From Aminobacter sp. AP02 (GTDB taxonomy: Bacteria; Pseudomonadota; Alphaproteobacteria; Rhizobiales; Rhizobiaceae): DNA of 64,000 bases. The translations under genes and the position numbers were made by a program. Position 1 is the first letter of the stretch. Each line of letters opens with the position of its first letter. This document shows, one piece after another, positions 58,626 to 63,412 of the stretch. A model generated the notes under the pieces. That model ran no database searches. It was not told the origin of the DNA and was given only the letters and a program-made list of their open reading frames with translations. The stretch lies in the NCBI RefSeq assembly GCF_003148805.1, contig NZ_QGGX01000019.1, forward strand, positions 1 through 64,000, written 5' to 3'.

Positions 58626-58702
58626 GGTCCCGTAGCTCAGTAGGATAGAGCGGCAGATTCCTAATCTGTAGGTCACAGGTTCGATTCCTGTCGGGATCAC
58701 CA
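58626..58702 (+). tRNA. tRNA-Arg (anticodon CCT)
   Basis: The 77-nt gene folds as a complete cloverleaf. The acceptor GGTCCCG pairs with CGGGATC, D stem GCTC/GAGC, anticodon stem GCAGA/TCTGT with loop TTCCTAA (anticodon CCT, decoding AGG), and T arm ACAGG-TTCGATT-CCTGT. Discriminator A and an encoded CCA end it at 58702. tRNA genes of this kind are frequent integration targets, and the foreign-looking region starts directly after. Confidence 0.97.
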
Positions 58703-59027
58703 TCCAAGCCCTTGAAATAGATAGACATTTCAAGATGCCGAAATGGTGCCGAGAGCCACTGATGCGGTCGGGACCAACTTGGGACCATCTGTTCAGGTAT
58801 TAGTTCTAGCTGCGTGCCCGGTGCGCCTCTGCAGAGCCAATTCGCCGAGCCTCCCCCGCGAAATGCCTAAACACTCAAAGCACCGTTCTTTCCGCCTTCA
58901 TAGGGCGGCCGCTCCGAAACGCTTATGGACTGGCGCAAGCGTGCCTGTGGCATCCAGCTAGCTTCGCTTTCCCGCCCTGTCGGGCTTCCAGAACGGCTGC
59001 ATGGTGCAGCCGACATTGGAGGCCACA
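58703..59027. other. Gene-free stretch at the island boundary
   Basis: No gene can be supported in these 325 bp after the tRNA. They hold an inverted repeat CTTGAAAT/ATTTCAAG at about 58,711-58,735 and a direct repeat GGGACCA twice, about 10 bp apart (near 58,771 and 58,781). These could be recombinase-binding repeats next to an attachment site, with the tRNA 3' end as the core. No second copy of the tRNA 3' end and no integrase gene occur in the window. Confidence 0.4.
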
Positions 59028-59363
59028 ATGCTTCTCACTGCCAAGCTTCGCACCCATCTTCGCCGCAACGCCGCCACCTCCGAACGCGGCGAAGTCAATC
59101 ACCGCCCCGTGGTGAAGTTCTTTCTCCCAGGTACCTCTGCGATCTGGCTCTTCACCGAACTCGCGGCTGACGACGACACCCTTTTCGGGGTCTGCGATCT
59201 AGGCCACGGCACTCCGGAACTGGGTTACGCGTCACTCGCGGAAATCCAGAGCCTTCGCGGTCCCAATCGTCTTCTGGTCGAGCGCGATCGGAGCTTCCAG
59301 AGCACCAAGCCTTTGTCCGAGTACGCCGCCGAAGCTCGCCGCCATGGCAGGATCGTCGCATAG
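59028..59363 (+). CDS. DUF2958 protein
   Basis: The 111-residue protein has the DUF2958 core: VKFFLPGTSAIWLFTELAAD, GHGTPELGYASLAEIQSLRG, then the VERDRSFQSTKPLSEY ending. This family is frequent on plasmids and integrative elements. Its function is not known. I chose ATG 59028, preceded by GGAGG at 59018-59022, over the ATG at 59001. It is the first gene of the suspected island. Confidence 0.88.
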   Translation: MLLTAKLRTHLRRNAATSERGEVNHRPVVKFFLPGTSAIWLFTELAADDDTLFGVCDLGHGTPELGYASLAEIQSLRGPNRLLVERDRSFQSTKPLSEYAAEARRHGRIVA

Positions 59364-59486: not shown

Positions 59487-60737
59487 ATGTCCGAGTTCAA
59501 CGACTTGCTCCGCCAGAGTGGACTAACGAGAGAGCAGGCCGCTGAGGAACTGGGCGTTTCAGCGCGCACCGTCAGACGATATGAAACGGGACAGACACAG
59601 CCGAGACCTCGTGATCTACGCGTGTTAAAGGGTCTCGTGGCAGCGGGCGCAAGACCGATCGCCAAGCCGACGGCTATACCCTTCCGCTTCATCGATCTGT
59701 TTGCCGGAATCGGAGGGCTCAGGCTGGGTTTCGAGGCAATTGGAGGCCGCTGCGTTTTCACATCGGAATGGGACCAGGGAGCACGCACGACCTACTCCCT
59801 GAATTTCCGCGACAACCACGAACTCGGCGGGGATATTAGAGAATTCTCAAAAGACCCAAGCAAAATACCCGAGCACGACGTGCTTTTGGCAGGATTCCCA
59901 TGTCAACCGTTCAGTATTGCCGGGGTTTCCAAGAAGAATTCATTGAATAGACCGCACGGCTTTCTTTGTGACACTCAAGGAACTCTTTTCTTTGACGCAG
60001 CACAAATTATTGCCCATCGCAGGCCTGCGGCGTTTGTTCTTGAGAATGTCAAGAATCTTGAACGCCACGACGGTGGAACGACTTTCCGGACGATCATCAA
60101 CGTCCTTAAGAACGAGCTAGGCTACCACGTCCAGCATCGCGTGATTAGCTCTGAGCCGTGGGTTCCTCAAAAGCGCGAGCGCATTTTCATCGTGGGCTTC
60201 CGGGAACCATCAGAGTTTGATTTCGATGCCCTTGAGATTCCGAATGCGAAGACCAGACCTAAGCTGAAGGACATCCTCCAGCCGCACGACGAGGTGGACC
60301 CGAAATATACCCTGACACCGCGTCTCTGGCAGTACCTCCAAGACTACAAGGCTAAACATCAGGCGAAAGGCAACGGGTTCGGGTACAGCCTGTTCGGACC
60401 GGAGGATGTCGCGCGCACGCTGTCGGCCAGGTATTATAAGGACGGATCCGAAGTCCTGATCGAGCAGCCTGGTGAGAGGCCGCGTCGCCTTACCCCATTG
60501 GAGTGTGCACGGCTCATGGGCTTTGACAGGGGCGATCGCCGCTGGCGGATCGAGGTTTCCGACACCCAGGCATATCGCCAGTTCGGAAACGCGGTCGTAG
60601 TTCCTGTCGTGGAGTTCATAGCGAAGGCGATCGAACCTCACATCCGCAAGGCTATCGGGCAACCCAATCAGGCCGAGCGCGCACCGCATGTTGTGCCAGT
60701 TATCACGCGGCCAGATCGAAGTGCGGTGGCAGCATAA
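59487..60737 (+). CDS. HTH-fused DNA cytosine-5 methyltransferase, Dcm/EcoRII type
   Basis: The 416-residue protein has an XRE-like HTH ([20 protein letters not shown], residues 13-32) joined to a C5-methyltransferase. Motif I is [10 protein letters not shown] (68-77), the catalytic Cys is C139 in [11 protein letters not shown] is at 186-188, QKRER at 228-232, and motif X begins QFGNAVVVP at 365. The recognition part has [13 protein letters not shown] and [17 protein letters not shown], as in Dcm and M.EcoRII, so CCWGG or CCNGG is likely. Codon use and GC are lower than in the core genome. Its TAA shares a base with the vsr ATG. Confidence 0.93.
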
Positions 60738-61189
60738 TGCCCGACATAGTGTCGCCCGATGTCCGCAGCCGTATGATGGCGGGCATTCGCGGCACAAATA
60801 CAAAACCGGAATTGACCCTGCGCCGTGCGCTCCATGCCGCCGGGTTCCGGTACAGGTTGCATGACCGCTCCCTTCCCGGAAAACCGGACATCGTGTTTCC
60901 CCGATATCACGCAGTCCTGTTCGCGCATGGCTGCTTCTGGCATGGGCATGACTGTCACCTGTTTCGCATGCCATCGACCCGTCCAGATTTTTGGTCAGAG
61001 AAAATCGCTCGAAACCGTGAAGTCGACCGAAGGGCGGATGACGAGCTGAGCCGGGCGGGCTGGCGGATTGGTGTCGTTTGGGAATGCAGTCTGAAGGGTC
61101 GTACACGCCGGGACATTGCCGACGTGATCGGATTGTGTGCCGACTGGCTGCGTGGCAGCGAGCAGCGGCTTGAAATACGAGGCATCTGA
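60737..61189 (+). CDS. vsr: Vsr very-short-patch repair endonuclease
   Basis: The 150-residue enzyme nicks 5' of T in T:G mismatches made when 5-methylcytosine deaminates. Residues fall at E. coli Vsr numbers: E25, catalytic D51 (GKPDIVFP), H64, zinc ligands C66, H71, C73 and C117, and H69 in CFWHGHDC. It should protect the methyltransferase's own sites from mutation. Its stop abuts the next ATG with no spacer, so it is coupled to the restriction gene. Confidence 0.96.
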   Translation: MPDIVSPDVRSRMMAGIRGTNTKPELTLRRALHAAGFRYRLHDRSLPGKPDIVFPRYHAVLFAHGCFWHGHDCHLFRMPSTRPDFWSEKIARNREVDRRADDELSRAGWRIGVVWECSLKGRTRRDIADVIGLCADWLRGSEQRLEIRGI

Positions 61190-62440
61190 ATGGCCATACG
61201 GCGGGGGCTGCTTTCCGAGCATTTCGAGGGTGTGGCCGTCAAGCGGCTGGCAGCCGTCGATGCCAATCCGGAGTCTTCCAACCAGCATGAAGTCACCGGG
61301 TCGGAGCCGCTTCTCAGGATTCTCGGCAGCGAGGATCGCAAATTCCCGAAAGGTGAGACAGATAACCGCTTCTCCGCTACCTACATTTGGCTTGGTGGAG
61401 AGCAGGAAGCTTTGTCGGAGGAAGGCTTTCTGTCCTGGTACGATTCTCGCAGGAACCAGCCGAAGCGAAGTGCTGAATGGCGGCTCTATTACCAGAGCAA
61501 CGCCGTCACCGAACTGATGAAGCCCGGCGATGTCCTCTTTCTTGCCAGGAAGCCAGACAGCCACATCCTTTTCATCGTAACACCCGACGAAAGCACCATC
61601 AGGAACCAGCTGCTTTGGCTCTTCGGCCTGGACGAGCAGATAGGCATGAAGTTCGAATCACAGGAAATTGGCGACGGTAACGATGCCGAACTGGATTTTG
61701 CAGCCCGGTACATCCTTGATGAGCTTGGCATCGAACTGGAAGAGAAAGAGGCCGACAAGCTGGACGGCCTTATCGAGAAGTTCGGACTGAAATTTCCGAC
61801 GACCAGCGTTCTTTCTGGCTTGGCACGTTCGTCGCTCCTCGGTGTCAATGCAGCGGACGATCCGGACGAGGCCCTGTTGCTATGGATGGAACGGGAAGAA
61901 CAGCTTTTCCGACGACTTGAGAGGCGCATCGTTGCCGAGCGTATCGCTCAGGGGTTCACGCTGGTTGATGGTGCCGATGTGGATGGTTTCATAGCGTTCT
62001 CGCTCAGCGTCCAGAACCGCAGGAAGGCCCGTGCCGGAGCCGCCTTGGAAAATCACATCGCAGCCGTGCTTGAGGCGAACCAGATCCGGTTCGCACACGG
62101 TGTCGAGACGGAAAACAGGAACAAACCGGACTTCCTGTTTCCCGGTCAGCCCGAATACCGAGACACGACGTTTCCAACCGCACGTCTGACTATGCTTGGC
62201 TCCAAATCCACCGTGAAGGACCGCTGGCGGCAGGTACTCTCCGAGGCCGTAAGGATCGAGGAGAAACACCTCCTTACATTGGAGCCAGGCGTTTCCGAGA
62301 ACCAAACAGATGAAATGCGTGCAAAGCTGTTACAGCTTGTTGTGCCGAGGAAGTTGCATCAGACGTACAGATTGACTCAGCAGGCATGGCTCATGGACCT
62401 GTCTGCATTCATTACTGTGGTCATCGATCGACAGTCATAG
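61190..62440 (+). CDS. EcoRII-type restriction endonuclease
   Basis: The 416-residue protein has an N-terminal EcoRII-N-like effector domain (about 55-150; LYYQSNAVTELMKPGDVLFLARK) and a C-terminal PD-(D/E)xK EcoRII-C domain. Catalytic residues keep EcoRII spacing: E287, D314 (KPDFLFPG), Y323, K339 and K343 (SKSTVKDRWRQ); D-to-Y is 9, Y-to-K is 16 and K-to-K is 4, as in EcoRII. It likely cuts CCWGG-type sites as a type IIE enzyme. No truncation is seen. Start ATG directly follows the vsr stop. Confidence 0.9.
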   Translation: MAIRRGLLSEHFEGVAVKRLAAVDANPESSNQHEVTGSEPLLRILGSEDRKFPKGETDNRFSATYIWLGGEQEALSEEGFLSWYDSRRNQPKRSAEWRLYYQSNAVTELMKPGDVLFLARKPDSHILFIVTPDESTIRNQLLWLFGLDEQIGMKFESQEIGDGNDAELDFAARYILDELGIELEEKEADKLDGLIEKFGLKFPTTSVLSGLARSSLLGVNAADDPDEALLLWMEREEQLFRRLERRIVAERIAQGFTLVDGADVDGFIAFSLSVQNRRKARAGAALENHIAAVLEANQIRFAHGVETENRNKPDFLFPGQPEYRDTTFPTARLTMLGSKSTVKDRWRQVLSEAVRIEEKHLLTLEPGVSENQTDEMRAKLLQLVVPRKLHQTYRLTQQAWLMDLSAFITVVIDRQS

Positions 62441-62458
62441 CGAATCGCTGCAAGAAAT

Positions 62459-62476
62459 GCCCCTTTCTGGAGGGGC
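62459..62476 (+). promoter_or_regulatory. Hairpin covering the HNH gene ribosome binding site
   Basis: GCCCCT (62459-62464) can pair with AGGGGC (62471-62476), with a 6-nt loop. The right arm is the GGAGGGG ribosome binding site of the next gene, whose ATG follows at 62480. If it forms, the hairpin would lower HNH translation, a plausible way to limit a nuclease. The stem is short. Confidence 0.45.
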
Positions 62477-62479
62477 AAA

Positions 62480-63412
62480 ATGCAAGAATTCGATCGGCCA
62501 TTTTTCAAACAGTTGGCAAAAAACGATACTGGCCAGGCAAAAGGCAAGCAGGCAGGAATAGTCATTGTAAAGGATCTGGCAGGCTTCTTCCCTCAGCTTG
62601 CGCTGCCTTCCGCCTCAAATTTTGCGCCTGACATTCGACTGAACGCCGCAATGTTCGACGGAGCTCATCAAGTTGGGTTGGCCAACACTCGATATCAGTA
62701 TCAGTCATGGGGAGGCACCCGCCTTGAGCGGCGACTAACTGACAATCTTGGCCCGATCCGATCATTGGCAAAGAAAGATGATTTACTTGTCATGGAGCGC
62801 AGCCTCTCCGACCCGCTTTTCTATCGGCTGACGCTTCATCGCGCGGGAACTCCAAGCTTTCCAGCCATTCTGTCGAAGGCCGCCGGGAGGCCGTGGGGGC
62901 CTCTGGACACACTGGACCCCCCAGTTCCTGAGACAGAGATAGCTGCCTGCGAAAAGGACCAGGAAGAGCAAGAACTCCTGCCTTTCGACCTTTTCGACAA
63001 CAGCGCCGCTCTTCACGAATCCAGAGTCAAGCGGATTGCTCGGAACAGGGCATTTGGACGGCGCGTCTTGCCTCTGTACGATCACCGTTGCGCTGTTTGC
63101 GGGCTTGGCCATGCTGGTGAAAATATTCAGGAGGCCGAGGCTGCTCACATTGTCCCCCGAGGCCTAAAAGGAGCGGACGATGCCCGAAACGGGTTGGCGC
63201 TATGCAGGTCTCATCACTGGGCTTTCGACGCAGGATTGTTTGGTGTCGGGGCTGACAGGAAGGTAGTCATCAATCCGAAGGCAGCAGCGGATGCCCGCAA
63301 CACGCATCTGCTTCCTTTCGATGGACAGCCTATTCGGGATCCTTCGAATCTCTCGCTTCGGCCCGACCTGTCTGCCCTCGAATGGCATTTGAAGAATGTC
63401 GCAGGGCTATAG
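62480..63412 (+). CDS. HNH nuclease with B3-like N-terminal region
   Basis: The 310-residue protein ends in an HNH domain: zinc pair C204/C207 (CAVC), metal/catalytic H223 (EAAHIVPRG), N237 (ARNGLAL), C242 and H245-H246 (LCRSHHWAFD). Its N-terminus (FFKQLAKNDTGQAKGKQAGI) resembles the B3-like DNA-binding domains of restriction enzymes such as NgoAVII, which is my inference from memory. It is the fourth gene of the cassette, 39 bp after the EcoRII-type gene. It may be a second restriction nuclease or a modified-DNA nuclease. Confidence 0.75.
   Translation: MQEFDRPFFKQLAKNDTGQAKGKQAGIVIVKDLAGFFPQLALPSASNFAPDIRLNAAMFDGAHQVGLANTRYQYQSWGGTRLERRLTDNLGPIRSLAKKDDLLVMERSLSDPLFYRLTLHRAGTPSFPAILSKAAGRPWGPLDTLDPPVPETEIAACEKDQEEQELLPFDLFDNSAALHESRVKRIARNRAFGRRVLPLYDHRCAVCGLGHAGENIQEAEAAHIVPRGLKGADDARNGLALCRSHHWAFDAGLFGVGADRKVVINPKAAADARNTHLLPFDGQPIRDPSNLSLRPDLSALEWHLKNVAGL

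Follow-up and report, generated by a model that had tools for sequence, protein, structure and literature searches.

Why should one DNA methyltransferase be accompanied by two restriction nucleases? The question is raised by four open reading frames (ORFs) in a 64,000-nucleotide (nt) stretch of the Aminobacter sp. AP02 genome (contig NZ_QGGX01000019.1, positions 1 to 64,000; the window), all located on the + strand at 59487-63412 and encoding, in order, a Dcm-type C5-cytosine methyltransferase, a Vsr mismatch endonuclease, an EcoRII-type nuclease and an HNH nuclease. We consider it probable that these genes constitute a composite Type II restriction-modification (R-M) system carried on a mobile element, in which two nucleases restrict a single CCWGG-like site when it is unmethylated. 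This reading builds on the genes present and their domains, the conservation of catalytic residues, evidence of purifying selection and the recurrence of each nuclease without the other beside the same methyltransferase family. The parts themselves are familiar; the unusual points are the HNH enzyme, in which a B3-type reader is fused to the nuclease, and the pairing of this enzyme with a second nuclease under a single mark.

Gene organization and domain make-up of the cassette

The four-gene cassette, proposed in a preliminary description together with the overlap or abutment of its first three genes, is confirmed by ORF coordinates and by Pfam matches that lie above the curated cut-offs for all four proteins (Table 1). 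The methyltransferase and vsr genes overlap by 1 nt (TAATG), the EcoRII-type gene begins directly after the vsr stop codon, and a gap of 39 nt separates it from the HNH gene.

The same description had credited the HNH nuclease with a DNA-binding domain of its own. This domain is present and its identity, a point beyond that description, is EcoRII-N, the B3-fold effector domain of EcoRII, here fused to a McrA/TagI-like HNH domain as determined by Pfam and Foldseek; the protein is referred to below as B3-HNH. Both PF09217 (EcoRII-N) and HNH_2 are matched by all 22 proteins of alignment A2 (E<=0.01), which represents 22 of the 26 B3-HNH proteins and omits those of loci L003, L043, L179 and L180. 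An AlphaFold2 model of B3-HNH built on this alignment (predicted local distance difference test, pLDDT, 90.6; predicted template modelling score, pTM, 0.81) has as its top Foldseek match in the PDB the EcoRII effector domain bound to cognate DNA (3hqf; E 7e-7, prob 1.00, TMt 0.63); UbaLAI (5o63) and BfiI come next, each through its B3 domain. Of the functionally important arm residues of EcoRII, R94, E96 and R98 correspond to invariant R81, E83 and R85 of B3-HNH, while R88 corresponds to an invariant glutamine, Q75. The HNH half resembles TagI, VcaM4I, ScoMcrA and EcoKMcrA in both Foldseek and sequence-profile comparisons, and residues H223, N237 and H246 are invariant across the 22 proteins. 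H223 aligns in the sequence profile with residue 239 of the 6ghc chain, which we take to be H229 because the chain has 287 residues compared with 277 for the protein. H229 is given as catalytic in PMC7145662.

Two observations on related HNH proteins are added here. B3-HNH proteins of L033, L034, L036, L038-L042, L044, L045 and L046, mostly from Rhodobacterales, retain the H/N/H residues, but their first CxxC pair is without its second Cys and the second pair without its Cys, a comparison drawn from alignment A2 and therefore without L043. The window's genome also encodes another HNH protein (G000:C8:19514-19966; L002 and L090) with 34% identity over the HNH half only and no match to the B3 query.

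The third protein was expected to be an EcoRII-type enzyme with intact catalytic spacing, and this is borne out. In a phmmer alignment to EcoRII (1na6), the catalytic residues E271, D299, K324 and R330 of EcoRII correspond to E287, D314, K339 and R345, the D-to-K distance being 25 in both proteins. An EcoRII-C fold with a permuted PD...K...E site is thus present, as indicated by the PF09019 match and the aligned residues. Up to residue 180 of the window protein Pfam detects no match, and in the N-terminal part of 25 EcoRII-type proteins (alignment A4) it yields stray single-member matches only. Lack of an effector domain, the reading that Pfam alone would give, is rejected on structure comparison: the AlphaFold2 model (pLDDT 83.8) matches full-length EcoRII (1na6_B; 429 columns, E 1.6e-25) and also the effector domain of EcoRII alone (3hqf; prob 1.00, E 1.3e-5, TMt 0.50). 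Profile-profile alignment of the N-terminus to B3 domains of the family using hhalign is weaker than the structure match (E 5.5e-5, probability 66%). As modelled, the protein reads as an EcoRII-type enzyme with all its parts, the B3-like effector domain having diverged; both nucleases of the cassette would therefore carry a B3-type reader.

Methyltransferase specificity

The likely target of the methyltransferase, as judged from its sequence, is CCWGG. Its target-recognition region is 63% identical to that of Escherichia coli Dcm and 65% identical to that of M.EcoRII, both CCWGG enzymes, and the three proteins have in common the motif GNGFG and a second motif of 11 residues. Searched as a regular expression, GNGFG[YF] is found in 4/4 methyltransferases of loci with both nucleases (composite loci) and 42/43 of EcoRII-type loci, and the second motif in 4/4 composite, 42/43 EcoRII-type and 19/21 HNH-only methyltransferases. 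Whichever nuclease is present, these regions are close to Dcm and M.EcoRII and to one another, CCWGG enzymes being the only ones compared. Vsr repairs T:G mismatches arising by deamination of a 5-methylcytosine mark.

Each nuclease recurs without the other

Among 26 B3-HNH loci, the window included, a Dcm-type methyltransferase is found at the same locus in 25 (broken in L041), and in the 26th, L030, the contig stops 86 bases past the HNH stop codon. Vsr is present in 19/26. An EcoRII-type gene occurs in 4/26 and none is seen in the remaining 22, with L030, L038, L039, L044 and L180 cut near the gene such that a neighbour may be missed. The simplest form, annotated dcm-vsr-HNH, is that of the Thauera plasmid pTha01, whose nuclease is labelled only 'HNH endonuclease'. 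Conversely, the 47 EcoRII-type loci kept contain a methyltransferase in 45, Vsr in 37 and B3-HNH in 4; in the 43 without a visible B3-HNH gene a neighbour may likewise be missed where the contig is cut near the gene (among L054, L096, L098, L100, L110 and L112), the contigs of L098 and L112 ending 2-3 bases past it. Since the methyltransferase accompanies B3-HNH in 25/26 loci and the EcoRII-type gene in only four, B3-HNH seems to be a cognate restriction enzyme independently of the EcoRII type and, as each nuclease recurs beside the methyltransferase without the other, each appears to be a cognate of this Dcm-type family. The preliminary description had reasoned that a bystander would be found mostly alone or with unrelated neighbours; these counts show the reverse.

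Loci were collected from several sources. For B3-HNH, 20 of 23 genome-contig loci and 2 of 3 viral-contig loci are full-length, two further genomes were added, and the plasmid source gave 1 of 90 matching records covered over >80%. For the EcoRII-type protein, 52 loci had a match and five were dropped before counting: L049 (a different EcoRII-C protein, partial match), L108 (internal stop), L113 and L118 (cut short) and L120 (broken frame). Of 28 plasmid records with at least 80% of the protein, 11 were used (L072-L082), and L083-L089 comprise all 7 full-length genome matches besides the window. In a relatives search of 68 loci, L093-L124 were inspected and L094-L120, minus L104, were typed; L121-L158 were left untyped as partial protein matches, L157 and L158 to an N-terminal piece and the others from residue 81 onward. 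Duplicate rows were removed for L093 (the L051 contig), L104 (the L052 contig) and L024 (the L033 contig).

Among 397 genomes of the window's order, a full-length EcoRII-type protein is found in 8 (any match in 17) and B3-HNH in 3, one of them cut by a contig end; these searches scored the best few candidates per genome, and further copies may be missed.

Composite loci and apparent nuclease exchange

Besides the window, the four-gene form is seen in L027 (a Mesorhizobium metagenome-assembled genome), L029 (Chelativorans) and L051 (a contig from a viral collection), with reading frames intact in all four. The window, L027 and L029 have flanking DNA in common beyond the cassette, and the match of L051 is confined to the interior of the methyltransferase-vsr and EcoRII-type genes. 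The preliminary description had offered fusion of two systems as one explanation, and this is well supported, as methyltransferase-Vsr-EcoRII-type and methyltransferase-Vsr-(B3-HNH) arrangements each recur alone and four loci hold both.

In a tree of 70 methyltransferases, from which L043 is omitted and in which L041 and L120 fall below the length limit, the nuclease label requires 11 changes compared with a shuffled mean of 20.2. L028 (HNH) and L073 (EcoRII-type) have sister methyltransferases (99/95) with 82% identity overall and 92% in the target-recognition region. Because such similar sisters sit with different nucleases, the simplest reading of the sequences is that nucleases have been exchanged around a conserved mark. 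Supported branches of this tree force the composite state to two changes, and we therefore reject the view that the four-gene form arose only once. In the EcoRII-type tree the number of changes is again two, one origin being found in 0/200 bootstraps, with supported branches forcing only one; the HNH tree allows a single composite origin in 24% of bootstraps and does not decide either way.

Across the window, L027 and L029, synonymous sites are strongly diverged (proportion of synonymous differences, pS, 0.55-0.78) and the ratio of nonsynonymous to synonymous proportions, pN/pS, is 0.11-0.33 in 12 comparisons. Frames are kept despite this divergence, and the cassette ORFs are therefore not due to chance. 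Purifying selection acts on both nucleases, more loosely on B3-HNH (pN/pS 0.27-0.32 versus 0.11-0.16 for the EcoRII-type gene), and amino-acid identity across the three related elements is 63-71% for B3-HNH versus 81-89% for the EcoRII-type protein.

A predicted hairpin precedes the HNH gene

An RNA hairpin (-16.6 kcal/mol) is predicted over the GGAGG stretch ahead of the HNH start codon in the window, 4/200 shuffled sequences folding as well (z -2.57). Hairpins in L027 (5963-6006; z -1.80, 11/200 shuffles as good) and L029 (5962-6006; z -2.32, 7/200) fold alike despite different stem sequences. By covering the ribosome-binding site, the hairpin may delay translation of B3-HNH.

Proposed mechanism and alternatives

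In the mechanism we propose, the methyltransferase would mark the CCWGG-like sites of the host with 5-methylcytosine and Vsr would limit the mutational cost of that mark. The EcoRII-type PD-(D/E)XK enzyme, with its diverged B3 effector domain, would attack the site when unmarked, and B3-HNH, combining an EcoRII-N-type reader with an HNH nuclease, would independently attack the same unmarked site, its translation perhaps held back by the hairpin. The nucleases would thus share a target and a sensitivity to the mark, and their pairing would presumably be of benefit. According to PMC4081073, EcoRII requires multiple sites for cleavage, an allostery whose purpose is called unclear, and its N-terminal domain acts as an effector. 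A type IIE enzyme such as EcoRII depends on at least two sites, and the likeliest advantage is therefore that B3-HNH, reading a single site through its own B3 domain, could cover DNA with sparse sites or inhibition of the first nuclease. Cutting of sites that the first enzyme leaves, a role raised for the HNH protein in the preliminary description, may also occur.

Several observations weigh against this mechanism. Y226 of EcoRII, described in PMC6344858 as having its ring parallel to the central base that is flipped, has as its counterpart in the EcoRII-type protein a nearly invariant Glu (E237) and thus no aromatic residue; another residue could stand in for it. In B3-HNH, Q75 in place of EcoRII R88 would cloud the exact target, and the window protein carries K23 where His is found in 19 of the 21 other A2 proteins. 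GNGFG[YF] is matched in only 16/21 methyltransferases of HNH-only loci, one of the 21 being truncated. In L051 the hairpin is weak (z -1.20, 26/200 shuffles as good). Finally, with the best few candidates per genome scored, the window's genome is the only one of the 397 in which both nucleases are found together, and co-occurrence beyond these cassettes is therefore not enriched.

The differences from EcoRII in base-pocket and reader residues would suit a methyltransferase that protects a degenerate site such as CCNGG, of which each nuclease covers part. We give this arrangement a small chance, as the target-recognition regions are near those of Dcm and M.EcoRII and of one another, in a comparison with CCWGG enzymes only. 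The preliminary description had also suggested that the HNH protein cuts foreign modified DNA, forming a type IV-like second layer behind the EcoRII-type enzyme. Its HNH half is indeed closest to the modification-dependent enzymes TagI, VcaM4I, EcoKMcrA and ScoMcrA and matches an NCBIfam phosphorothioate-dependent family (83 bits, cut-off 180), and replacement of R by Q in the reader might shift what this domain recognises. The family match is below the cut-off and restricted to residues 184-307, that is, the HNH half; the reading half is EcoRII-N/B3, and neither SRA nor another modified-DNA reader is found among Pfam matches at E<=1 or the top structure matches. Moreover, a cytosine methyltransferase adjoins B3-HNH in 25/26 loci, such that a 5-methylcytosine-dependent nuclease would be self-destructive at that site. 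A phosphorothioate- or modification-dependent reading of the HNH protein was accordingly rejected, and we regard the type IV-like layer as unlikely.

It is similarly unlikely that the nucleases form one machine, with B3-HNH acting in trans on the EcoRII-type enzyme as an effector or as a source of second-strand activity. EcoRII uses its own N-terminal domain as effector (PMC4081073), a like domain is here on the neighbouring protein, and the two genes are adjacent and co-oriented; however, the EcoRII-type protein has a B3-like domain of its own, and most of the typed loci contain one nuclease but not the other. The faster evolution of B3-HNH in the three related elements might be taken to indicate that the HNH gene is a bystander or is decaying within an otherwise ordinary EcoRII-like system. 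This is very improbable given purifying selection, the invariant HNH triad, the intact frames of the four composite loci and the steady methyltransferase partners elsewhere, and a bystander is rejected on partner counts and selection. We therefore retain two independent nucleases on one mark as the preferred reading.

A broader proposal is decidedly tentative: EcoRII-N/B3 may be a portable address tag for Dcm-type marks, borne by interchangeable effectors (PD-(D/E)XK, HNH, stand-alone beside an MvaI-like nuclease, or GHKL ATPases). The window cassette would stack two of these, single-site B3-HNH covering escape from the multi-site EcoRII-type nuclease, with HNH translation delayed by the hairpin until methylation is complete.

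Relationship to known systems

The EcoRII R-M system (type IIE, CCWGG) resembles the cassette in its Dcm/EcoRII-type methyltransferase, EcoRII-C domain with matching catalytic residues and N-terminal B3 effector fold. In contrast, the window adds a second nuclease, Vsr and a Pfam-detectable helix-turn-helix (HTH) domain on the methyltransferase, its effector domain is beyond Pfam detection, and Glu occupies the Y226 position. The one EcoRII locus compared (L092) comprises the nuclease and a convergent methyltransferase, with no annotated vsr or HNH gene. In E. coli, a Dcm-type methyltransferase gene is likewise followed by an overlapping vsr, but no restriction nuclease is annotated alongside (MG1655). 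A B3 domain also reads the site in UbaLAI, whose nuclease half is MvaI-like and not HNH. The same is true of BfiI, in which the nuclease half is PLD rather than HNH (PMC4081073). The HNH type IV enzymes TagI, VcaM4I, EcoKMcrA and ScoMcrA have the same kind of C-terminal HNH domain, whereas their readers recognise modified DNA and that of B3-HNH is EcoRII-N/B3.

MORC operons containing VP1/RAV (B3) proteins, EcoRII-like and HNH nucleases, methylases and Vsr are described in PMC2292703, and PMC8011034 places EcoRII-C, MvaI_BcnI, HNH_2 and Vsr near RR-like genes. These paraMORC/MORC-associated R-M operons thus have methylases, Vsr, EcoRII-like or HNH nucleases and B3 proteins in the neighbourhood, as here; unlike them, the window has B3 fused to HNH. 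Pfam scans of a subset of the ORFs, 7 proteins of the window and 11 of the element, detected no GHKL ATPase. In titles and the beginnings of abstracts of open-licence literature we found no naming of the B3-HNH enzyme or the four-gene cassette; an earlier description is possible.

The B3-HNH family probably provides the cognate restriction enzyme for a set of Dcm-type methyltransferases, and the composite loci would be natural examples of one protective mark serving two unrelated nucleases. That methyltransferases so alike sit beside different nucleases points to nuclease exchange around a conserved mark. The cassettes make testable the purpose of the type IIE multi-site requirement, called unclear in PMC4081073, along with possible compensation for this requirement by another nuclease that has the same specificity.

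The cassette is cargo of an element integrated at tRNA-Arg

The location of the cassette within an element integrated at a tRNA-Arg gene is a further point beyond the preliminary description. An exact-pattern search of the genome for the 24-nt attachment repeat gave 2 matches, with 0 control matches, delimiting an element of ~23.6 kb from window position 58678 to C19:82260 with the R-M cassette as left-end cargo. An integrase-like gene lies at C19:80330-82075 (-), its Pfam match just under the cut-off, and further element genes encode a MobA/MobL relaxase, a phage-GPA-like replication protein and a dCTP deaminase-like protein. A DUF2958 gene (window 59001-59363) lies between the tRNA and methyltransferase genes. 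Just downstream of the cassette is a second C5-methyltransferase gene (C19:63847-65199; L091:5848-7200 (-)) without the Dcm target-recognition motifs, to which a stretch at the corresponding position in L027 and L029 matches. Carriage by phage was considered and rejected, as 3/50,697 phage records gave a match and in none did it extend over >80% of the protein.

Table 1. Coordinates of the cassette, its domains and the left end of the element in the window (aa, amino acids).
Feature	Position	Strand	Evidence
tRNA-Arg (CCT), insertion site of element	58626..58702	+	ARAGORN
Left attachment repeat, 24 nt of tRNA 3' end	58678..58701	+	Exact copy at contig C19:82237-82260, beyond window
C5-cytosine methyltransferase, Dcm type, N-terminal HTH (aa 8-47)	59487..60737	+	PF00145 DNA_methylase 267 bits; HTH_31/HTH_3; TIGR00675 dcm 300.6 bits
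Vsr mismatch endonuclease	60737..61189	+	TIGR00632 151 bits (cut-off 97.85); Pfam PF03852 Vsr 107 bits
EcoRII-type restriction endonuclease, PD-(D/E)XK, catalytic domain aa 240-408	61190..62440	+	PF09019 EcoRII-C 228 bits; phmmer 3hqg E 5.5e-40
EcoRII-N/B3-like effector domain (diverged) of EcoRII-type nuclease, ~aa 1-150	61190..61639	+	Foldseek, hhalign
Predicted RNA hairpin over GGAGG stretch ahead of HNH start codon	62458..62477	+	Fold z -2.57
B3-HNH restriction endonuclease	62480..63412	+	PF13391 HNH_2 53.5 bits, aa 204-256
EcoRII-N (B3) DNA-binding domain of HNH protein, aa 1-150	62480..62929	+	PF09217 31.0 bits (cut-off 25), aa 8-89

Other arrangements of EcoRII-N/B3 proteins

Further arrangements were observed among the collected loci. 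L047 (4300-6432) and L048 (4408-6432) contain methyltransferase-Vsr cassettes in which a stand-alone EcoRII-N/B3 protein adjoins an MvaI/BcnI-family nuclease, Pfam typing having been performed on L047 only. At L049:5971-9354 and L052:5938-9351, a B3 domain heads a protein of ~1130 aa with two GHKL ATPase domains, and this gene is followed by one for a ~370-aa protein without a Pfam match; L052 holds an EcoRII-type gene as well. On a Rhizobium plasmid (L073:6722-11507), the opposite strand downstream of the EcoRII-type cassette encodes an HNH protein, a GHKL ATPase, a stand-alone EcoRII-N protein and a helicase.

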